A stretch of 35,250 bases of DNA from Chitinophaga pinensis. Its GTDB lineage: Bacteria; Bacteroidota; Bacteroidia; UKL13-3. The notes below the pieces were generated by a model. The model saw only the letters and a list, made by a program, of their open reading frames with translations, ran no database searches and was not told where the DNA came from. The position numbers and the translations under genes were made by a program. Shown one piece after another: positions 24,577 through 35,250 of this stretch (within the stretch, counting starts at the first letter, position 1; the number at the start of each line of letters is the position of its first letter). The DNA lies in NCBI GenBank assembly GCA_945898275.1, contig CAMDHZ010000029.1, positions 1 through 35,250 on the forward strand, given 5' to 3'.

Positions 24577-25377
24577 TCAATAAAAGGTTTTACCAGTCCA
24601 AATTCCAAGGTTGGTTTGAACCGAAAGCAAGACGATGCCATGTATTTGTGCAAGTGGTTGAATTAAGTATTTTCCTTCTTCTAATTGAGAAATAAAATGT
24701 GGAATTTCTTTTCCCTCTAGCGTAAATAGTTTTAAATCGGCCAAAGAATAAGGCATTTCAAGAAGTAAGTCCTTGTTGTATTGTTTAATGGAAATTTTTT
24801 GTCTCCATACTTCCTCTTTAGTCGAAGTTCCAATAAGGTTTAAGACTAATGAGTCAAGGTATACCTTATCTCCTTGGGTATTTTGGTCGTTGTTAGCCAT
24901 TACACCAGCAGCATATAGTGTAATAGTTTGATTCGTAGGATTTTTTGGCGCCTGCCATTTAAACTTCCATTTCTTTAAATTTATGGCATTTGTGCCTTTA
25001 TCATTGTGGGTTACATAATCAGAAACATTTACCCCACTATCTCCAGCACTTAGAAAAGTTCCAGCACTTAGAAAACTTAATCCTTTAAACCTTGCATTTA
25101 ATGCAAAGCCGAATTTGGTGATACCTTGACTAGTACTAACCACTTCTATTTCATAAATACTATCTGGAATAAAAGTAGAATTATTTTGGTTTCCATTTAC
25201 TGAAATATTTATCGAGCTTTCTAAATCTGGGTTTGTTTTGCCAATATGACAAGAGGCGCAACTTCCTTCCTCTGGGGCTCCAGACATATTAAATCCCGCA
25301 ATGCTGCTAGCATGTAAGGTGTATATAACACTTGCCACTATGGTAAGTGAAAAAAAAATCCCTGTAATTTTCTTCAT
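24577..25377 (-). CDS. Choice-of-anchor V secreted protein with one haem c motif
   Basis: A 266-residue exported protein. After a signal peptide (MKKITGIFFSL...; cleavage near residues 25-30) comes GAPEEGSCASCHIGK, a CxxCH haem c attachment site at Cys40-Cys43-His44. Next is a beta-sandwich region (FGFALNARFKGLSFLSAGTF, WKFKWQAPKNPTNQTITLYAAG) typical of the choice-of-anchor V/reeler-like family. The last 70 residues (LADLKLFTLEGKEI ... GKYLIQPL ... IVLLSVQT) look like a shortened T9SS type A sorting domain. Probable role: a surface or periplasmic haemoprotein; partner unknown. An alternative ATG five codons earlier (25392) is in frame. I prefer 25377 because the signal peptide then starts MKK. 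Its first codons form a terminator hairpin. It contains a copy of the recurrent motif. Confidence 0.8.
   Translation of the reverse strand: MKKITGIFFSLTIVASVIYTLHASSIAGFNMSGAPEEGSCASCHIGKTNPDLESSINISVNGNQNNSTFIPDSIYEIEVVSTSQGITKFGFALNARFKGLSFLSAGTFLSAGDSGVNVSDYVTHNDKGTNAINLKKWKFKWQAPKNPTNQTITLYAAGVMANNDQNTQGDKVYLDSLVLNLIGTSTKEEVWRQKISIKQYNKDLLLEMPYSLADLKLFTLEGKEIPHFISQLEEGKYLIQPLAQIHGIVLLSVQTNLGIWTGKTFY
24613..24622 (-). repeat. GGTTCAAACC motif copy 6 (coding)
   Basis: Plus strand GTTGGTTTGAACCGAAAG, near the 3' end of the choice-of-anchor V gene, read as GTT-CAA-ACC in LLSVQTN. Like copy 1, it lies in a T9SS-like C-terminal domain. Confidence 0.9.
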
Positions 25378-25386
25378 TACAGGGAT
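25350..25386 (-). terminator. Terminator hairpin after infB, overlapping the start of the next gene
   Basis: On the minus strand ATCCCTGTAAT pairs perfectly (11 bp) with ATTACAGGGAT across the 7-base loop GAAGAAA, and nine T residues follow. It lies 30 bases after the infB stop and has every mark of an intrinsic terminator. However, the ATG of the choice-of-anchor V gene (25377-25375) ends the left arm and enters the loop, and codons 4-7 make the right arm and the start of the T-tract. Confidence 0.9.
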
Positions 25387-25415
25387 AGACAAATCTTTTT
25401 GTGAAAAGGTTGTTT

Positions 25416-28400
25416 TTATTTTAAGGTACGTTTCACTTCTACTTCTTCGTAAGCCTCCACAAAATCACCCTCTCTTAAATCGTTATAGTTATGAATGGTT
25501 AAACCACAATCATATCCACTTGCTACTTCTTTCACATCATCCTTAAAGCGTTTTAAGGATGAGAGTGTACTAGAGTAAACTACAACTCCATCTCTAATAA
25601 GACGTACTTTAGCGTTTCTAAGTATTTTTCCATCAGTTACCATACAGCCGGCCACAGCACCAACTTTAGTTATTTTGAAAACTTCTCTTATTTGAGCGTT
25701 ACCTAGTATTTTCTCTTCAATTGTAGGAGCGAGAAGTCCTTCTATAGCTGCTTTAATTTCTTCAATTGCATTGTAAATTACAGAATACATGCGGATATCA
25801 ATGGACTCGTTTTCAGCTAACTTTCTTGCTTGGGAACTAGGTCTAACCTGGAATCCAACGATGATTGCATCAGATGCTGAAGCCAACATAACATCGCTTT
25901 CAGAAATTTGACCCACTGCTTTGTAAATTACGCTCACTTGAACTTCTTCAGTAGAAAGCTTAATCAATGAGTCCGAAAGGGCTTCAACAGATCCATCCAC
26001 ATCACCTTTAACAATTACCTTGAGTTCTTTGAAGTTTCCAATTGCTAGACGTCTTCCAATTTCGTCCAAGGTTATATGCTTATTAGTTCTTATTCCTTGC
26101 TCGCGTTGAAGTTGTTGACGTTTGTTAGCAATCTCTCTTGCTTCTGGCTCAGTCTTAGTAATAATGAATCTATCACCTGCTTGAGGAGCGCCATCAAAAC
26201 CAAGTATAACAACTGGTGTGCTTGGTCCAGCTTCTGCCATTTTCTTTCCTCTCTCATCAAACATGGCGCGAACTTTTCCACTATTTACGCCAGCCAAAAT
26301 TGGATCACCTACTCGCATTGTTCCACTTTGTACCATGATAGTGGTAACAATACCTCTTCCTTTGTCGAGGGTGGCCTCAATAACATTACCAACAGCACGT
26401 TTATTTGGATTTGCTTTTAGGTCAAGTATTTCAGCTTCAAGTAACACTTTGTCTAACAGAGACTCTATACCAACACCTTTTTTGGCTGAAATTTCTTGAC
26501 ATTGGTATTTTCCGCCCCATTCTTCTACTAAAATATTCATTGCTGCCAATTGTTCTCTGATTCTATCAGGATTGGCTGCATCTCTATCAATTTTATTTAA
26601 GGCAAAAACTATAGGAACACCTGCGGCTTGTGCATGCGATATAGCTTCTTTGGTTTGCGGCATAACGCTGTCATCCGCAGCAATAACAATAATTACAACG
26701 TCTGTAAGTTTTGCTCCCCTTGCACGCATGGCGGTAAACGCCTCGTGACCTGGTGTATCTAGAAAAGTTATTTTTTTGCCACTTTCTAATTTCACTTCAT
26801 ATGCGCCAATATGCTGTGTAATTCCGCCTGCTTCACCTTTTACTACATTAGCACTTCTAATATAATCGAGTAAAGAGGTTTTACCATGATCTACGTGACC
26901 CATTACTGTGACAATTGGAGCTCTTGGTTCTAAAGTATGTGGTTCGTCTATATCTTCTTCTACAGCTTCTACCATTTCAGCAGAAACAAATTCCACTTCA
27001 AAGCCAAACTCTTCTGCAACAATGGCGATTGTTTCTGCATCAAGCCTTTGGTTGATAGAAACCATCATTCCTAAACTCATACATGCGCTAATAATTTGTG
27101 TCACTTGAACACTCATCATATTTGCAAGTTCATTGGCTGTTACAAACTCTGTTACCTTAAGTTTGTTTTTTTCCAATTCCTCTTGGAGCATTTGCTCTTC
27201 GCGCTCTGAGGCTTTATCTGTGCGTTTTTGTTTTCTGATTTTAGACCTAACCTGCCCGATATTTGGATTTTTACTTCCAGGATTAAGTCGTGCTAAAGTT
27301 GCCTTTAATTTATCTTGTATTTCCTTATCAGATATTTCAGTTTTTACCTCCGGTTTAGGAGCATTTCTATTGTTTTGATTACCACCTCTATTGAAGCGAT
27401 TATTACCACCTTGTTGGTTATTTCCTTGGCCTTGGCCAGGTCCGCGGTTAAATCCACCACCGCCACCGCCTGTTCCAGCTGGTCGATTCCGAGGATCAAA
27501 ATCTTTAGCAGGGTCTACTTTTTGTATTCCAGTTTGATCTACCTGTTTACGTTTGCGTTTGCGTTTTGCATCAATATTGCTATCGCTGCTTGCAACTGGG
27601 TTTGGTTTTTTAGGTGGATCTTTTCTTAATTCAATTTTTCCAAGAACCTTTAATCCATCAAGTTTTTCATATTTAACATCCATTACCTTAACATCTTCAT
27701 CTGCAGATGCTTCTGTGATGGTTATCGGTGTTTCTGTTGATATAATTACTTGTTCTTTTGGCGCTTCTGGCTCTATATTATTGGTAATTGGGGTTTCAAC
27801 AACCGGATCTATTTTTTCTTCAACCTTTTGGGTTTCAACCTTTACTTCTTGGACAATTGGAACAGATGGTGCTTTTGTTTGTTCAGGCTTTTTAGGAGAA
27901 GGCTTTGGTTTTTTGTTGGCATCTAAATCTATTTTTCCAACTACTTTTAACCCTCCTAAAGTTTCTTCTTGAATAGGTGTTACTATTGGCTTTTCAATAA
28001 CATTATCCGCTATAACAACAGGAACTTCTACTTTAACCTCGATTACTTCTTCTTTTTTTACTTCAGGAATTGGCGCCTCAATGATTGGTGCAATTTCAAC
28101 TTTCACTTCAGGTTCTACAGCTGCTAGTATAGAAGCCTCTTCCGCTTTAGGGGTTTCAGGTTCTACTTTTTTATTAGCTGCTGGGGTATTTACCAAGCCA
28201 CTTTTTATCAATATTCCATCTTCTTCCTCTTCTTCCTCAACAACAATTGCCTTAGGTTTTGGTATTTCAATTATGGTGTTTTGAGGCTTTATGCGATCCT
28301 TCCCTAATTTGTTTGCCTCTTGTTTAACCTTTTTCTCGGAAGAGTACTCTGCCAATAACAAATTAAATTGTTCTTCTGTAAGCTTGGTGGTTGGCTTAGC

Positions 28401-28508
28401 TTCAATTTGATGGCCTTTTTTAGCTAAAAATTCAACCGCAGTATTTAAACCCACGTTAAATTCTTTAGCCGCTGCACTCAATCGTTTTGTTCCTGTTGTT
28501 TCGCTCAT
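25416..28508 (-). CDS. infB: Translation initiation factor IF-2
   Basis: A 1030-residue cytoplasmic GTPase that delivers initiator tRNA to the ribosome. The C-terminal 500 residues carry the G domain: GHVDHGKTS (537-545), [16 protein letters not shown] and NKID. Domains II-IV follow, ending [14 protein letters not shown]. The N-terminus (residues 1-65) has an IF2-N fold. About 65-400 is a low-complexity linker rich in E, V, K and P, with a short motif used twice ([10 protein letters not shown] at 187-196, [10 protein letters not shown] at 285-294), a basic KRKRKRK stretch near 315-321 and a Gly/Asn/Arg-rich patch at about 345-382. Long linkers are usual in Bacteroidota IF-2. Third gene of rimP-nusA-infB, 81 bp after nusA. 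Confidence 0.97.
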
Positions 28509-28589
28509 TCTGCGCTTTACTTCCTAAAAATTTGTGCGAATATCGTTATTTAACATGGATATTCCTCATGTTGGTTTTATCACTTGTTA

Positions 28590-29825
28590 TTATTCGAATT
28601 CTGCCTCAAGTATTCTTCTAACTTCTTGAACTGTTTCTTCCTCTAATTCGGTACGTCTTACTAATTCTTCATTTGACATACTGAGCACTGCTTTTGCGGT
28701 ATCTAAGCCCAAACCTTTAAGCTCATCAATAATCCAACTATCAATCTCATCTGAGAATTCATCCAAATCAATGTCTTCTTCTTCCACCTCGGCTTCGCGG
28801 TAAACATCAATTTCGTATCCAACTAATTTACCAGCAAGCTTAATATTATGTCCACCTTTACCAATTGCTAGTGAAACCTGATCTGGTTTTAGATAAACGC
28901 TTACTCGCTTTTTAATATCATCAATTTTGATGCTGCTAATTTTAGCTGGACTTAAAGCTCTTTGAACTAAAAGTGAAGTATTGGCGGTATAATTAATAAC
29001 ATCAATGTTTTCGTTTCTAAGTTCTCTTACAATTCCATGGATACGAGAACCTTTCATACCTACACACGCTCCAACCGGATCGATTCTGTCATCATAACTT
29101 TCAACAGCTACTTTTGCTCTTTCTCCAGGTTCACGCACAATTTTCTTGATGCTGATAAGGCCATCAATAATTTCTGGAACTTCTTGTTCAAACAATCTTT
29201 CTAAAAATACAGGAGAAGTGCGCGAAAGTATAATTCTTGGATTGCCATTGTGCATTTCAACTTTTAACACAACTGCGCGAATTGAATCACCTTTTTTATA
29301 AAAATCAGCAGGTATCATCTCTGTTTTTGGAAGTAAAAGCTCATTGCCAGCATCATCCAAAATCATGATTTCTTTTTTCCAAATTTGGTAAACCTCACCT
29401 CCAATAATTTCACCCACACGGTCTTTATATCTTTTATAAAACTCGTCTTTTTCTAGTTCTAATACTTTAGATAAAAGTGTTTGACGGGCTGATAGTACTG
29501 CACGCCTTCCAAAAATAGCTAAGCCAACTTCTTTAGTTACATCTTCTCCTATTTCAAAGTCTGGTTCAATTTTTTGCGCTTCTGTAATCGAAATTTGGGT
29601 GTTTTCATCTTCAACTTCTCCATCATGAACAATTACCCTATTGTGCCATATTTCTAAGTCACCACTTTTGTCATTAATAATTACGTCGAAGTTTTCATCA
29701 TTATTAAACCTTTTGCGCAACATACCACGAAAAACGTCTTCTAACACACGCTGCATGGTCGCGCGATCGATGTTTTTAAATTCTTTGAATTCGCTAAACG
29801 AATCAATTAATCCTGCACTATGCAT
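28590..29825 (-). CDS. nusA: Transcription termination/antitermination factor NusA
   Basis: A 411-residue cytoplasmic RNA-polymerase-binding protein. The N-terminal domain starts LIDSFSEFKEFKNIDR and continues to about residue 130. An S1 domain follows (about 135-200), then two KH domains with VGACVGMKGSRIHGIVRELR and VSLAIGKGGHNIKLAGKL. The tail is acidic, with a short helix-hairpin-helix-like end (LKGLGLDTAKAVLSM), and lacks the extra acidic repeats of E. coli NusA, as is usual outside Proteobacteria. It modulates pausing, intrinsic termination and rRNA antitermination. It is 26 bp after rimP, so cotranscribed. Since NusA enhances hairpin-dependent termination, the terminator-like hairpin in the operon leader is a candidate autoregulatory target. 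Confidence 0.97.
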   Translation of the reverse strand: MHSAGLIDSFSEFKEFKNIDRATMQRVLEDVFRGMLRKRFNNDENFDVIINDKSGDLEIWHNRVIVHDGEVEDENTQISITEAQKIEPDFEIGEDVTKEVGLAIFGRRAVLSARQTLLSKVLELEKDEFYKRYKDRVGEIIGGEVYQIWKKEIMILDDAGNELLLPKTEMIPADFYKKGDSIRAVVLKVEMHNGNPRIILSRTSPVFLERLFEQEVPEIIDGLISIKKIVREPGERAKVAVESYDDRIDPVGACVGMKGSRIHGIVRELRNENIDVINYTANTSLLVQRALSPAKISSIKIDDIKKRVSVYLKPDQVSLAIGKGGHNIKLAGKLVGYEIDVYREAEVEEEDIDLDEFSDEIDSWIIDELKGLGLDTAKAVLSMSNEELVRRTELEEETVQEVRRILEAEFE

Positions 29826-29851
29826 ATCCTATTATTTTAAATTTTTAATTA

Positions 29852-30316
29852 CTAATTAAATGATACCTGAACAACTGCCGACTCAATCTCCCCAAAGCCA
29901 ATATTCTTAACTGTTGGTTCAGCAAGGTTATAAGCCTTTTTTTTATCTTTCAATTGAAGCGTAATTCCAAGCTCTTCAACTGAGACTAAACGACCAACTA
30001 ATTCTGATTTTTCTTTCAATACTATTTTCAACTCTCTGCCGATGTGTTTTTGATATTGTCTGGGTAAAATAAGCGGTCTGTCTACCCCTGGCGAAGAAAC
30101 TTCTAGCGTATATGGAATTAATCCAAAATCAACTTCATCTAATTTTAACGAAAGAAACTTGCCGAATTTTCTGCATTGCTCAATGGTTAATGGTCCGTCA
30201 CTATCCAAAAGAACAATCAATTTTCCCCCAGCATTTTTATGCTCAATTTCCACCACAAAAACTTCCGGCTCGAGCACTTCCTTGCTCCATTCAATTATTT
30301 GTTCTGCTATCTGCAT
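29852..30316 (-). CDS. rimP: Ribosome maturation factor RimP
   Basis: A 154-residue cytoplasmic protein for 30S subunit assembly, normal length. The N-terminal domain has VEIEHKNAGGKLIVLLDSDG and a central LIPYTLEVSSPGVDRPLIL, the family's most conserved block (about residues 70-88). A short C-terminal Sm-like domain follows (LVGRLVSVEELGITLQLKD). First gene of the rimP-nusA-infB operon, the order found widely in bacteria. The ATG at 30316 lies 3 bases after the U-tract of a perfect leader hairpin, with a consensus promoter further upstream. Confidence 0.95.
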   Translation of the reverse strand: MQIAEQIIEWSKEVLEPEVFVVEIEHKNAGGKLIVLLDSDGPLTIEQCRKFGKFLSLKLDEVDFGLIPYTLEVSSPGVDRPLILPRQYQKHIGRELKIVLKEKSELVGRLVSVEELGITLQLKDKKKAYNLAEPTVKNIGFGEIESAVVQVSFN

Positions 30317-30319
30317 GGT

Positions 30320-30348
30320 AAAAAAAGAGGGGACTTGCGGTCCCCTCT
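30320..30348 (-). promoter_or_regulatory. Terminator-like hairpin (putative attenuator) in the rimP-nusA-infB leader
   Basis: On the minus strand AGAGGGGAC pairs perfectly (9 bp, GC-rich) with GTCCCCTCT over the 5-base loop CGCAA. A run of T follows (30320-30325, plus the last stem base), then ACC-ATG of rimP. No gene ends upstream on this strand, and the operon promoter lies 5' of the hairpin, so the structure is inside the leader RNA. It has the form of an intrinsic terminator. It could cap expression of the operon by attenuation and also hide the ribosome-binding region. Confidence 0.75.
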
Positions 30349-30366
30349 ATCTCTTTTAATAAGCTG

Positions 30367-30397
30367 CAAATATATGAGTAATTTGCAATTAATCAAA
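30367..30397 (-). promoter_or_regulatory. Promoter of the rimP-nusA-infB operon
   Basis: Minus strand: TTTG (-33, 30397-30394), exactly 19 bases, then TATATTTG (-7, 30374-30367). Both boxes and the spacing match the Bacteroidota consensus TTTG-N19-21-TAnnTTTG. The predicted start is near 30360, giving a leader of about 45 bases that contains the hairpin described at 30320-30348. Confidence 0.75.
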
Positions 30398-30653
30398 TTT
30401 ATAATTTTGATATTAGAACTTTTAATCCTAATTGTATCCTTGTGAAGGTAAATTTTAGATTGCTATATCCTCTTTTGGGTTTAGCTTAATTTATTTCAAT
30501 TTTAATTTAATTGAAAATTGGAAATACTTTTAACGCATTTCAATTTTTGAAATAATTTACTTTTTTAATATTCTTCATTAGGCGCTTGGTTCAAGCCGAA
30601 CCCTTAAATGACAATATAGTAGTATTTTATGGACGCAAATTAGAGTTTGACAC

Positions 30654-30685
30654 TTGCAATGTCAATACCTTTTAAGATAATTTTG
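30654..30685 (+). promoter_or_regulatory. Candidate promoter of the putative outer-membrane barrel gene
   Basis: TTG (30654-30656, within CTTG), a 21-base spacer and a full-match -7 box TAATTTTG (30678-30685). This leaves a leader of about 70 bases before the ATG at 30762. Confidence 0.4.
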
Positions 30686-30761
30686 TGATGGCCCTTCTAA
30701 ATGAATTTTATTTTGACATTTTTATGGTTATTTGTATTGTCTTTTTTAAACATTAAAGTAA

Positions 30762-31775
30762 ATGACTAAAAAAAATTGGCTTATAGTATTTTATTTAGTT
30801 GTAATGGTAATTGTTTCGAAGGCTCAAAGCGGCACCAGCCAGAGGGTTGGCCCAATTGAAGTCTTTCCAAACAGTTTATTATTGTCTCCCTATTTAGAAA
30901 CCAAAAGTCATTTAATGCAGGTAGATATGGTTAATCCAAATGGGCCAACCAAGTTAAATTACCTAAGTAATTTTATTTTAACTGGCGGCCTTAGGTTTAG
31001 GTATAAATGGTTAAATTTTCAAGTAGGTACTCGGCTTCCAGTCACAAGATTAAATGAGCAATTGGGTAATACAAACAATTTTGCACTTGGTATAAGTGTG
31101 GTTAAAAGAAAATATACCCTTCAAACTAAATATGAAACCTATACTGGGTTTTATCTGCAAAATACTGAAGAATGGTTGCCAAATTATAGAGCTAATCATG
31201 CTGATGGCGCCTTTTATCTTAGGCCAGATATTAAGGCTCAAACACTGTTTACAGTTTATAACTATATCCTCAACCACAAAAGATTTTCAAATCCTGCAGC
31301 TGTATTTCAGTTCGAACGTCAACGCAAAGCCGCCATTGGTGTAGCCCTTGGCGCAAGTCATATGTATAATAGGTTAGAAGCAGATTCTAACTTATTTCCT
31401 CGTACCACAAATACTGAAAAATTGCCTTTTACTGAAACTTTTTTGGCTTCACATACTTTGGGTTTGCAACTTGGATTGATGGGTACAATTCCGCTTTTTT
31501 CAAAGCGACATTGGTTTGTAAGTGCTAGTATTATTCCTGGTTATTCATTGCAATATGGAAGAACCACTAAAAGTATTAACTCCATTTTTCCAAATCGCAT
31601 TTTTTATGGAATAACCAATGAGTTAAGGCTTGGAATTGGCTATAATGCACAAAAATGGTTTGCAGCTTTTCAAATCACAAGTTTTGGTAATACCATAAAA
31701 GTGAGAGAGTCCGAAACTTATTTGGTTCAAAATGCTTACTTTAGAATAAGCACTGGAGTTAGGTTTGGGAAATAG
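30762..31775 (+). CDS. Putative outer-membrane beta-barrel protein, DUF4421-like
   Basis: A 337-residue protein with a signal peptide (MTKKNWLIVFYLVVMVIVSKA then Q). The rest is made of alternating hydrophobic/polar strands rich in Y, F and N: GGLRFRYKWLNFQVGTRLP, LQTKYETYTGFYLQN, LGLQLGLMGTIPLF, FVSASIIPGYSLQYG, and a final FRISTGVRFGK ending in a barrel-like strand. The Y-x-GFYL segment and layout resemble DUF4421, a Bacteroidota family of unknown function, but I am not certain of the family. Likely location is the outer membrane; no role can be given. It stands alone and converges on the prolyl oligopeptidase gene with only 3 bp between stop codons. Confidence 0.7.
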   Translation: MTKKNWLIVFYLVVMVIVSKAQSGTSQRVGPIEVFPNSLLLSPYLETKSHLMQVDMVNPNGPTKLNYLSNFILTGGLRFRYKWLNFQVGTRLPVTRLNEQLGNTNNFALGISVVKRKYTLQTKYETYTGFYLQNTEEWLPNYRANHADGAFYLRPDIKAQTLFTVYNYILNHKRFSNPAAVFQFERQRKAAIGVALGASHMYNRLEADSNLFPRTTNTEKLPFTETFLASHTLGLQLGLMGTIPLFSKRHWFVSASIIPGYSLQYGRTTKSINSIFPNRIFYGITNELRLGIGYNAQKWFAAFQITSFGNTIKVRESETYLVQNAYFRISTGVRFGK

Positions 31776-31778
31776 TTG

Positions 31779-33911
31779 TTATTGAAGGTTCCAAAGAATA
31801 AAAGAATACATATCTGTTGCATCTTCAATAAGCTTGGCAGTTGGTTTCCCTGCACCATGTCCTGCTTTACTGTCAATTCTAATTAAATGCGGAGTATCCT
31901 CTTTTTTTGCTTTTTCTTGCAAAGTTGCAGCAAATTTAAAGGAATGTGCAGGTACCACTCTATCGTCGTGGTCGGCTGTCATTATTAATGTGGCAGGGTA
32001 ACTTACTCCTTCTTTGATGTTATGCAAAGGAGAATACTTTAATAGATAATTAAACTGTTCTTTATTATCGCTAGAACCATATTCAACTGCCCAGCCCCAG
32101 CCAATGGTAAATTTATGGTAGCGCAGCATATCTAAAACTCCTACAGCTGGGATTGCTGCTTTAAATAATTCAGGCCTTTGGGTCATGCATGCACCAACAA
32201 GCAATCCCCCATTGCTTCCTCCGTTAATAGCTAATTTAGAAGACTGAGTGTATTTTTCTGCAATAAGGTATTCTGCCGCCGCAATAAAATCATCAAATAC
32301 AGTTTGTTTTTTGCCTAACATACCTGCCTGATGCCATTCTTCGCCATATTCTCCTCCACCGCGCAAATTTGCAATGGCATAAACTCCACCACGTTCTAAA
32401 AACATCATTCTACTTATACTAAAAGAAGGCGTCAGGTTGATGTTAAATCCGCCATATCCATATAGTAAGGTTGGATTGTTTCCTTCTAGCTTCAATCCTT
32501 TTTTATGCATAATAAACATTGGAACTTTTGTTCCGTCTTTGCTGGTAAAAAATACCTGCTTAGTTTCAAATTGACTTGGGTCAAATGCATATTTTATTTC
32601 TGCCCCCCAAGACTTTTGGTCCATTGTTTTTAAATCGTAAAACTTGATTTTTCCTGGCTCTGTAAATGAAATATAATTGTAAGTTATTAGATTCTCATTG
32701 GCTTTACAGCCTCCGGTACTAGCAGTGCCAATGCCTGGTAATTCAATTTCAGATTTTAGCTTACCTTTAAAATCATAATGTTTTAGGCGTGTGCTAGCAT
32801 CTACTAAATAATTCGCAATCAAATCGCCGCCAGCACTGGTAACATTTTCTAATAAGTTCTTTCCTTCTGCAATTCTAACTTCCCAGTTTTTTTCTTCTGG
32901 TTGCGTTGGGTCAATAGCAACCAATCTGTATTTTGGTGCCTTATAATCTGTTAAAATTAAAATCTTGTTACCATCATTTGTAACTACGCCATAATTGTTG
33001 GTAAATCCTTTACATAGGGTTTTAAAGCTGCCTTTTAAGTAGTCTTGATTTTTAATGGATTTTACCAAAATTTCGCTTCCAGAGGTTCCTTCGCTGATGT
33101 TTATAAAAAGGAAGCTTTCATCCTCACTTACCGATGCATTGAAGTATCTGAGCGGATGAGCCTTGTCTTCATAAACCAATTTATCCTCGCTTTGCTGCGT
33201 TCCCATTTCATGATAATAAATTTTCATGAATTCATTCTTATTGCTAAAATCTTTTCCTTTGGTTGGCTCATCATATCGGCTATAGAAAAAGCCATTTTTG
33301 AACCAAGTGGCACCACTAAATTTAACCCAATTAATTACATCCTTTGTTTTTTCAAGGGTTAAAAGATTTATTACAAAAATTTCATTCCAATCACTTCCGC
33401 TTTTAGAAATTCCAACAGCAGCAAACTTGTGATCTTTGCTAAAGCTTAAGCTTGCCAAAGACACAGTACCATCCTCCGAAAGCTTATTGGGGTCAAGAAA
33501 AACCTCTGCATTGCTAACATTTTCTATGTCTTTGGTTCTATAAATTACGCTTTGGTTTTGAAGCCCATTATTTTTTCCAAAATACCAATATTCTCCTTCT
33601 TTAAAAGGGGCACTGAATTTTTCGTAATTCCAAATTTCTGTTAAACGTGTTTTTATTTCTTCTCTAAACGGAATTTGATTGAGGTAGTTAAAAGTAACCT
33701 CATTTTGCTTAGCTACCCAATTTATAACTTCTGGCGCAGTGTCATTTTCTAACCAGCGATAAGGGTCTGCAATTTCAACCCCAAAATAGTTGTCTATAGT
33801 ACTGTCTTTTCGTGTGTTTTCGATGGTCATTAAATTCAAACTTTTCTTTTCCATATTATTTGTACAAGCACCTAAAATTAGAAGGGCGTTTAAGTAAATA
33901 AGTTTTTTCAT
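31779..33911 (-). CDS. Prolyl oligopeptidase (S9A) family lipoprotein
   Basis: A 710-residue serine peptidase. The N-terminus is a lipoprotein signal, LILGAC with Cys16 as lipidation site, so it is anchored to a membrane outside the cytoplasm. A seven-bladed propeller spans about 45-450, starting IADPYRWLEN as S9A enzymes do. The alpha/beta hydrolase domain follows, with nucleophile Ser566 in NGGSNGGLL, Asp649 in ADHDDRVVP and His685 in KAGHGAGKP, and the family block YAIANLRGGGEYGEEWH. It cleaves short peptides after proline. Length and triad are complete. Upstream lies a copy of the recurrent motif followed by TTAACTTGC; the sod terminator separates it from sod. Confidence 0.94.
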   Translation of the reverse strand: MKKLIYLNALLILGACTNNMEKKSLNLMTIENTRKDSTIDNYFGVEIADPYRWLENDTAPEVINWVAKQNEVTFNYLNQIPFREEIKTRLTEIWNYEKFSAPFKEGEYWYFGKNNGLQNQSVIYRTKDIENVSNAEVFLDPNKLSEDGTVSLASLSFSKDHKFAAVGISKSGSDWNEIFVINLLTLEKTKDVINWVKFSGATWFKNGFFYSRYDEPTKGKDFSNKNEFMKIYYHEMGTQQSEDKLVYEDKAHPLRYFNASVSEDESFLFINISEGTSGSEILVKSIKNQDYLKGSFKTLCKGFTNNYGVVTNDGNKILILTDYKAPKYRLVAIDPTQPEEKNWEVRIAEGKNLLENVTSAGGDLIANYLVDASTRLKHYDFKGKLKSEIELPGIGTASTGGCKANENLITYNYISFTEPGKIKFYDLKTMDQKSWGAEIKYAFDPSQFETKQVFFTSKDGTKVPMFIMHKKGLKLEGNNPTLLYGYGGFNINLTPSFSISRMMFLERGGVYAIANLRGGGEYGEEWHQAGMLGKKQTVFDDFIAAAEYLIAEKYTQSSKLAINGGSNGGLLVGACMTQRPELFKAAIPAVGVLDMLRYHKFTIGWGWAVEYGSSDNKEQFNYLLKYSPLHNIKEGVSYPATLIMTADHDDRVVPAHSFKFAATLQEKAKKEDTPHLIRIDSKAGHGAGKPTAKLIEDATDMYSFILWNLQ

Positions 33912-33935
33912 TGACTCAAATTTTTAGCAAGTTAA

Positions 33936-33945
33936 GGTTTGAACC
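33936..33945 (-). repeat. GGTTCAAACC motif copy 7 (intergenic)
   Basis: Plus strand TTAAGGTTTGAACCAAG, 24 bases upstream of the prolyl oligopeptidase ATG. On the gene's sense strand it reads TTGGTTCAAACCTTAACTTGC, in two parts: motif, then TTAACTTGC. The layout parallels copy 3 before gcvH (motif then TTATTTTGC). Confidence 0.9.
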
Positions 33946-33975
33946 AAGTTTTTAAATCGCTATTACACTAAAGGC

Positions 33976-34006
33976 AAAAAAAAACCAGGCTAATTAGCCT
34001 GGTTTT
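33976..34006. terminator. Terminator downstream of sod
   Basis: A 26-base perfect palindrome (33981-34006; arm AAAACCAGGCTAA) is flanked by nine A on the left, which become a T9 tract on the minus strand. It lies 18 bases after the sod stop at 34025. Strong for the leftward sod transcript; the right side also has a T run. Confidence 0.93.
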
Positions 34007-34024
34007 TTAAAAATTTATTATTGA

Positions 34025-34633
<609 letters not shown>

Positions 34634-34654
34634 AATTTTTAATTATTTAAGATA

Positions 34655-34687
34655 CAAATATATGGGATAAGTTAGGTTTGGTTCAAA
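34655..34687 (-). promoter_or_regulatory. Promoter of sod
   Basis: Minus strand TTTG (34687-34684), 21-base spacer, TATATTTG (34662-34655): full consensus. The -33 TTTG lies inside the recurrent motif GGTTTGAACC (copy 8), so whatever binds that motif could compete with sigma factor here. The leader is about 15 bases. Confidence 0.75.
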
Positions 34688-34738
34688 CCATAATTTATTA
34701 ACATAACAATAGATTTTTTTGTTTCGGTTTGAACCAAA
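34677..34738. repeat. 13-bp inverted repeat made of motif copies 8 and 9
   Basis: TTTGGTTCAAACC (34677-34689) and GGTTTGAACCAAA (34726-34738) are perfect reverse complements separated by 36 bases. They contain the exact 10-mers at 34680-34689 and 34726-34735. They lie between the tadA stop (34740) and the sod promoter. A transcript could fold into a stem here; there is no U-tract directly after it, so it is not a classical terminator. Confidence 0.9.
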
Positions 34739-34739
34739 A

Positions 34740-35186
34740 TTAAGCCCGAAGTTTTTGAAAAAACGCCTTTAAAAGACTCGCAGATTCCTCGGCTAAAATG
34801 CCATTTTTGATATTTGTTTTTGGATGTAGCATGCTGGAATTTGTGTTTGTAAAACCTCTTTTAGGGTCATTAGCACCTATCACTAAATTTTGCAATTGTG
34901 TCCAATATATAGCTCCAGCACACATATTACATGGTTCTAAAGTAACATAAAGTGTGCACTCTGTTAGGTACTTTGCGCCAAGGTAGTTAGCTGCTGCCGT
35001 AATAGCTTGCATTTCTGCATGTGCGGTTACATCATTCAATCTCTCTGTAAGATTATGGCCTTTTCCAATGATTTTATTGTCGCAAACTACCACGGCACCC
35101 ACGGGAACTTCTCCTAATTCAAAGGCTTTTTTGGCTTCTTTGAGGGCTTCACGCATGAACCATTCATCAGAAAAAATTGATTCCAT
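34740..35186 (-). CDS. tadA: Nucleoside/tRNA adenosine deaminase, TadA family
   Basis: A 148-residue cytoplasmic zinc deaminase. Zinc and catalytic motifs are HAEMQAI (the HAE motif) and TLEPCNMCAGA (PCxxC), with GEVPVGAVVV and a late IGANDPKRGFTN. TadA converts adenosine to inosine at wobble position 34 of tRNA-Arg(ACG). Related guanine or cytidine deaminases share these motifs, so a different nucleoside substrate is possible, but the length and the EPCNMCAGAI block favour TadA. A full-match -7 box ends 4 bases before the ATG. Downstream, the inverted motif pair begins 2 bases after the stop. Confidence 0.88.
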   Translation of the reverse strand: MESIFSDEWFMREALKEAKKAFELGEVPVGAVVVCDNKIIGKGHNLTERLNDVTAHAEMQAITAAANYLGAKYLTECTLYVTLEPCNMCAGAIYWTQLQNLVIGANDPKRGFTNTNSSMLHPKTNIKNGILAEESASLLKAFFQKLRA

Positions 35187-35190
35187 TTTT

Positions 35191-35198
35191 CAAATCTA
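35191..35198 (-). promoter_or_regulatory. -7 promoter box of tadA, almost touching the start codon
   Basis: Minus strand TAGATTTG is a full match to TAnnTTTG, with only AAAA between it and the ATG at 35186. If used, the mRNA would be nearly leaderless. The -33 region near the window edge shows no TTTG at the right spacing. Confidence 0.45.
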
Positions 35199-35250
35199 TT
35201 ATTTAATTACTGAATTTATTTTTTGAACTATATCTTTTGAAGTTTTTAAT

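Follow-up and report, generated by a model that had tools for sequence, protein, structure and literature searches.

What is a terminator-like hairpin doing almost against the start codon of rimP, where no gene upstream needs a terminator? We address this question for a 35,250-base stretch of Bacteroidota DNA, analysed here as a whole and called the window, in which rimP, nusA and infB follow one another on the minus strand and probably form one operon under the leader that holds the hairpin. The answer that we consider probable is that the hairpin is an intrinsic terminator in the rimP-nusA-infB leader, with read-through set by NusA. The features concerned are the following, in the direction of transcription:

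30394..30397, minus strand: -33 promoter box TTTG, 19 bases ahead of TATATTTG (sequence; a promoter role is established knowledge for the phylum)
30367..30374, minus strand: -7 promoter box TATATTTG, of TAnnTTTG type (sequence; TAnnTTTG counts in relatives)
30360..30365, minus strand: predicted transcription start (from the position of the promoter box)
30326..30348, minus strand: candidate terminator/attenuator hairpin, 9 bp with a 5-nt loop (sequence, folding, covariation)
30320..30326, minus strand: U-tract, U7, whose first U is the last stem base (sequence; phylum-wide U-tract test)
29852..30316, minus strand: rimP, with RimP_N (PF02576) and DUF150_C (PF17384) (gene order, Pfam)
28590..29825, minus strand: nusA, 411 aa, with NusA_N, S1 and KH domains (gene order, Pfam)
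25416..28508, minus strand: infB (IF-2) (gene order, Pfam)
25358..25386, minus strand: terminator-like site 30 bp past infB, probable operon end (terminator scan, stem energy)

In Bacteroidota, TTTG and TAnnTTTG boxes act as promoters. The phylum consensus is also given in PMC9723704. The first-pass annotation of this DNA had named a promoter of the form TTTG-N19-TATATTTG, a perfect 9-bp GC-rich hairpin with a U-tract 3 bases before the rimP ATG, and the absence of any upstream gene needing a terminator, and all three hold up in the sequence. Both boxes are in place at 30397-30367 of the minus strand, and with a transcription start 2-7 nt past TATATTTG the leader would be about 45 nt long. The hairpin reads AGAGGGGAC-CGCAA-GTCCCCTCT (30348-30326, minus strand), with nine pairs, six of them G-C, and a GGGGAC...GUCCCC pairing; a U7 run made of the last stem U and six more extends to 30320, followed by ACC and then the rimP ATG at 30316, which leaves 9 nt between stem end and ATG and 3 nt between U-tract end and ATG. 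The upstream neighbor (30762-31775), encoding a DUF4421 protein by Pfam, is divergent on the plus strand, and the hairpin therefore ends no other gene. A long AT-rich stretch separates the DUF4421 gene from the rimP promoter.

No other site on either strand of the 35,250 bases has a perfect stem that is 9 bp or longer, includes six or more G-C pairs and is followed by six or more T within 8 bases. A fold of the hairpin and its flanks (56 nt) reaches -20.6 kcal/mol (z -4.4), a value equalled by 0 of 200 shuffles, while the stem alone, at -15.9 kcal/mol, compares with -14.8 at the site after infB and with -15.0 to -23.7 at other gene ends of the same genome. A generic scan of positions 25000-35250 was no richer than shuffles (8 terminator-like sites vs. 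7.3 expected, and 33 promoter-like sites vs. 32.1), so that the case rests on comparison and not on that scan. None of the curated Rfam 15 families matched the window at its gathering score, and a permissive Rfam search returned ten matches at the site, all far under their gathering scores (lowest E 0.046, for RefA1). The highest score among these was that of MicC (24.7 bits vs. a gathering score of 90).

This anatomy points to an early intrinsic terminator in the rimP-nusA-infB leader as the most likely identity of the hairpin. Hairpin and U-tract would terminate RNA polymerase about 40-45 nt after the start, so that the polymerase either stops, with a leader RNA some 40 nt long as the product, or continues into the operon genes. 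The roughly 12-17 nt ahead of the stem would leave too little room for an antiterminator helix, and the window leader has no ATG, GTG or TTG between promoter box and hairpin, and thus no leader peptide; since it would have neither device, the split between stopping and reading through should depend on the termination efficiency of the polymerase. Nor could ribosomes sway the choice, we infer, as the rimP start codon would not yet be transcribed at the moment of termination. NusA promotes hairpin-dependent pausing and termination. As the second gene product of the operon, it would thus raise termination in its own leader, and high NusA would lower its own operon, with termination presumably partial in vivo and NusA the factor that sets its level. 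Counting against this is the stem itself, which is no weaker than the site after infB, is close in strength to those at other gene ends of this genome, and could therefore stop most transcription without NusA. We judge it unlikely, as a rival account, that the hairpin is a fixed, unregulated partial terminator that merely lowers operon output, but the stem is indeed ordinary among the gene-end terminators of this genome, and no sign of a response is visible in the sequence.

Comparison with close relatives bears on whether the structure itself is maintained. When 60 genomes, including that of the window, were searched at the DNA level, 28 gave matches; 30 loci were kept, most of which carry a hairpin of the same kind. 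Stems in relatives read GGGGGC...GCCCCC or GGGGC...GCCCC; outside the stem and U-tract, the aligned loci show little conservation. Compensatory stem changes, which the first-pass annotation had suggested looking for, are present: for 9 of the 10 stem pairs, one sequence or more has both sides altered (27 cells in total, a level reached by 0 of 500 shuffles), although the sequences are related and the two-sided changes are not independent events. For instance, both arms are altered in three loci (L014, L017, L020), from GGGGAC/GTCCCC to GGAGAC/GTCTCC. This count used 40 loop-of-five sequences with a 10-pair stem, dropping L192, L252 and other loop lengths, because a MAFFT alignment of 45 mixed-loop hairpins had slipped in the 5' arm.

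A covariance model built on the 40 aligned hairpins found its best match just upstream of rimP in all 18 genus genomes with RimP_N (the nineteenth, G017, has no match), and the window leader is the best match in its own genome (54.6 vs. 45.1 bits); the model is not specific, having matches in 57 of the 60 genomes, several in many of them, and in G055 a best match that is not the rimP leader. The other matches that were inspected (four in the window's genome, three elsewhere) occupy intergenic or gene-end positions and were set aside as resembling ordinary terminators. The promoter is likewise shared. Within the 60 nt that precede the leader hairpin, a TAnnTTTG box is found in 36 of 36 class genomes and in 62 of 79 named loci, compared with 67 of 2300 shuffled 66-nt stretches. 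These named Bacteroidota loci are the 80 fetched with sequence upstream of nusA, less L033, which was too short; a terminator-like hairpin is found in the scanned stretch of 76 of the 79, and the remaining three consist of L062 and L083, which have one further upstream, and L098, which has no rimP before nusA.

We also examined leaders across the phylum, where RimP_N is present in 147 of 148 sampled genomes; 146 fetched leaders and that of the window gave a set of 147. Of these, 133 carry a terminator-like hairpin, by which we mean one with dG <= -9, at least 5 T of 8 and a position no further than 60 nt from the rimP ATG (14 have none that fits the rule within 60 nt), compared with 57 of 735 shuffled leaders and, under the same 60-nt rule, 5 of 90 control genes (groES 1/30, sod 1/30, recA 3/30). 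The control counts were unchanged when exact match positions were used. With a 200-nt search at -10, the counts are 135 of 146 for rimP, 17 of 30 for groES, 5 of 30 for sod and 8 of 30 for recA. At dG <= -8 the 200-nt finder reports a hairpin in all 146 leaders but also in 97 of 292 shuffles, and in several genomes (e.g., G129, G094, G142) it clearly picks a hairpin other than that of the leader as the best; the 60-nt version at -9 was therefore relied on. A motif finder requiring GGG..CCC had recovered 84 of the 146 phylum leaders, and since the misses (30 of 62 viewed) mostly carry other stems, we switched to the sequence-free finder.

The U-tract was assessed separately, on GC stems located without any T criterion in 106 of 146 leaders (40 had none under this stricter definition). 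At least 6 T of 10 follow the stem in 98 of the 106, vs. 10 of 106 on the opposite strand and, among random 10-mers, 291 of 1460, and a cruder test finds at least 5 T of 8 in 102 of 140 hairpins. The U-tract is thus conserved and oriented, which marks the feature as an oriented terminator and not merely a hairpin. Given the conserved stem and U-tract, the covariation and the promoter just upstream, we regard the attenuator reading as well supported.

These data also bear on the translational alternative that the first-pass annotation had left standing, in which the hairpin masks the rimP ribosome landing site. The window stem does end 9 nt before the ATG, and the median distance of 25 nt in 146 leaders is inside the ribosome footprint. 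Masking, however, has no need of a strongly conserved, oriented U-tract, hairpin-to-start distances begin at a few nt and in some lineages exceed 100 nt (some of these start codons or hairpin choices being uncertain), and nusA is preceded by the hairpin even where it has no rimP in front. Masking is accordingly the less likely reading, and we consider it very improbable.

A wide range of stems was observed in these leaders. By a rough, pattern-based classification, the 147 leaders comprise 36 with GGGRC..GYCCC, 34 with GTGGG..CCCAC, 26 with the inverse CCC..GGG, 6 with ATGGGC..GCCCAT, 2 with other GGG..CCC stems, 29 with other stems, and 14 with none within 60 nt. Stem sequence varies by lineage while the terminator stays at a similar place, and what the phylum has in common is, on the evidence of these sequences, termination and not a GGGc(...)gCCC motif. 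A point on the other side is the strong conservation of the GGGG core among Bacteroidia, which could reflect a sequence-reading factor. Two further patterns were seen among the leaders. Tandem terminators before rimP, a GGG..CCC-like one followed by an inverse CCC..GGG one, seem present in L157, L167, L168, L184, L149, L172 and L188. Many genomes (L192, L198, L199, L204, L218, L221 and similar ones) have almost the same terminator before rimP, of a GAAGTGGGG..CCCCACTTTTTTGTTTT-like kind, and in these leaders mostly no TAnnTTTG box was found upstream.

Retention by lineages with quite different stems would suit a fixed terminator as well; yet a weaker promoter would suffice to lower output, whereas the terminator is found in most sampled phylum leaders and, in operons with no rimP ahead of nusA, before nusA itself, and systems in other phyla respond to NusA, or are proposed to (PMC12288461, PMC2965389). 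Stem variation also speaks to the idea of a small RNA gene with the hairpin as its end and a short product that acts elsewhere. A promoter followed by a terminator is the anatomy of a small RNA too, and rimP leader RNA is listed among ProQ-associated, attenuator-derived RNAs (PMC5391140), but with little conserved outside stem and U-tract and with stems that differ by lineage the element is unlike a base-pairing small RNA, and about 40 nt would be very short. This idea seems to us far-fetched.

Operons in which nusA has no rimP in front offer a further comparison. At E <= 0.001, RimP_N was detected in 363 of the 396 genomes of the class sample, leaving 33 negative, and 22 nusA loci from RimP_N-negative genomes were examined, 18 in one set and four in another; left out of the 22 were thirteen further class-sample negatives as well as G017 and G058 (no nusA found). 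In six of the 22 (four from family f9, two from f57), a codirectional ORF ends 4-14 nt before nusA. As this ORF has weak RimP_N and DUF150_C Pfam matches, it is a diverged RimP, and the six loci, missed at the RimP_N threshold (L380, L381, L382, L385, L387, L388), were set aside as candidates for rimP-less operons; a RimP_N-negative result therefore does not prove the absence of RimP.

The other 16 genomes come from f15 (six), f71 (three), f84 (three) and f24, f51 and f93 (one each), together with the termite-gut genome G204 (L098). In none of them does rimP lie between leader and nusA, and no RimP_N match exceeds the cut-off genome-wide; a diverged RimP elsewhere is possible. All 16, a count of genomes and not of independent rimP losses, carry a promoter box and a terminator-like hairpin before nusA, one of them weak and one recognized by eye (L098:2880-3001; L368-L371, L378, L379, L383, L384, L386, L389-L395). 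In 15 of the 16, an automatic scan recovered a TAnnTTTG box and, after it, a hairpin ahead of nusA; 14 of these hairpins have dG values of -9.6 to -23.8, and that of G165 is weak (dG -6.6). The exception, G271, has a box and a T6 hairpin, 58 nt apart, about 250 nt before nusA, outside the range of the automatic scan. Spacing varies, with a box-to-hairpin gap of 45-48 nt in two f71 genomes and hairpin-to-nusA distances of 137 nt in G257 and 151 nt in G373. The latter (L378) is a 1.2-Mb genome that has no RimP_N candidate and carries a promoter box and a strong hairpin.

Stems differ between the rimP-less families, which argues for continued selection and against relics, and the presence of the unit before nusA in all 16 genomes without rimP there indicates that the promoter-terminator unit goes with nusA(-infB). 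As infB normally lies downstream too, these operons do not separate NusA from IF2. Our searches of open-access full texts, which were not aimed exactly at this point, found no report of a leader before nusA in rimP-less operons.

This distribution matters for the possibility that RimP, or IF2, and not NusA is the feedback factor on the leader. RimP was named as a possibility by Naville and Gautheret (PMC2965389) and, encoded elsewhere, could act in trans, and IF2 is encoded downstream in the same operon. Against RimP, the unit stands before nusA in 16 of 16 genomes without rimP there, where RimP is not under that leader, and no RimP_N match exceeds the cut-off in those 16, although six other negatives hold a diverged RimP before nusA; for IF2, no published feedback case was found in searches that were not aimed at it. 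We consider feedback by RimP or IF2 distinctly unlikely. Overall, the evidence favors feedback by NusA more than by RimP, and termination more than translational masking, and NusA feedback is plausible by analogy with the literature from other phyla and from the unit that precedes nusA without rimP in front. A more general reading, which we hold to be evenly poised between right and wrong, is that the nusA leader of this phylum may be a bare terminator gauging the cell's own termination capacity, with no aptamer, antiterminator or fixed motif, with stems that vary, and with the gauge belonging to nusA.

The kind of element, a rimP-leader attenuator, is known already; the comparative evidence in this phylum, the rimP-less operons and the stem turnover are new. 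A little-studied attenuator is thereby extended to a phylum whose promoters (TAnnTTTG) differ from those of model bacteria. The rimP-less operons constitute a natural experiment: with no mutant needed, they make RimP a poorer candidate for the feedback factor, leaving NusA (or IF2), and the change of stem between lineages argues that termination itself has been kept and not one protein-binding motif. Together, the two make NusA feedback directly testable in laboratory strains of Bacteroidia.

Among known systems, the closest is the rimP-leader attenuator described by Naville and Gautheret in 2010, who proposed NusA feedback for it (PMC2965389). The first-pass annotation had taken the layout to be unlike known cases; given this precedent, its attenuator reading stands, on conservation, covariation and promoter, while the claim of an unprecedented layout does not. 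In their description, the rimP-leader is a hairpin and T-stretch before rimP-nusA-infB, 4-130 nt from the gene, with a G-rich 5' arm and a C-rich 3' arm, a general form without antiterminator, and a conserved GGGc(...)gCCC motif from which they inferred a sequence-reading factor (PMC2965389). No word starting with "bacteroid" occurs in the main text of that paper, and its supplements may list members of the phylum. The window leader is alike in sitting in the 5' leader of rimP-nusA-infB, in having a hairpin followed by a T-stretch, and in having no larger conserved aptamer or antiterminator; its distance to the gene start falls inside the published 4-130 nt if counted from the stem end (9 nt) and just short of it if counted from the U-tract end (3 nt), the published reference end being unspecified, and its GGGGAC...GUCCCC is an approximate match to the published motif, from which other lineages of the phylum depart. 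Where the phylum differs is in its lineage-variable stems, which include the inverse CCC..GGG, and in having the unit immediately ahead of nusA in operons that lack rimP at that place. A leader-peptide attenuator is a different arrangement, as the window leader has no short ORF before its terminator.

In Bacillus subtilis, NusA attenuates its own operon via the leader (Mondal et al. 2016, as related in a 2025 review, PMC12288461), which is 180 nt long according to PMC2965389; attenuation there is reported as experimental, whereas that in the window is predicted, on a leader of about 45 nt. A likewise very short leader is described in the Gram-positive Streptococcus agalactiae, where RNA-seq of gbs0413-0418 showed transcripts of two lengths, short and long, from a single start, termination falling 31 nt past it, upstream of rimP-nusA-infB, and where NusA feedback was suggested (PMC4448216); the likeness concerns the layout. 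For the same gene within the same phylum, a structured 5' element of rimP in Flavobacterium psychrophilum, conserved in other Flavobacteriaceae genera and without an Rfam hit, is named as probably cis-regulatory, with no mechanism given in that account (PMC9723704). Finally, Escherichia coli K-12 has GGGC-TTTAG-GCCC and T7 just before rimP with a second terminator-like hairpin ahead of it, and thus differs from the window leader in its tandem terminators and in the initiator tRNA gene metY upstream, the order of its two hairpins being opposite to that of the phylum leaders in which the GGG..CCC-like one comes first.
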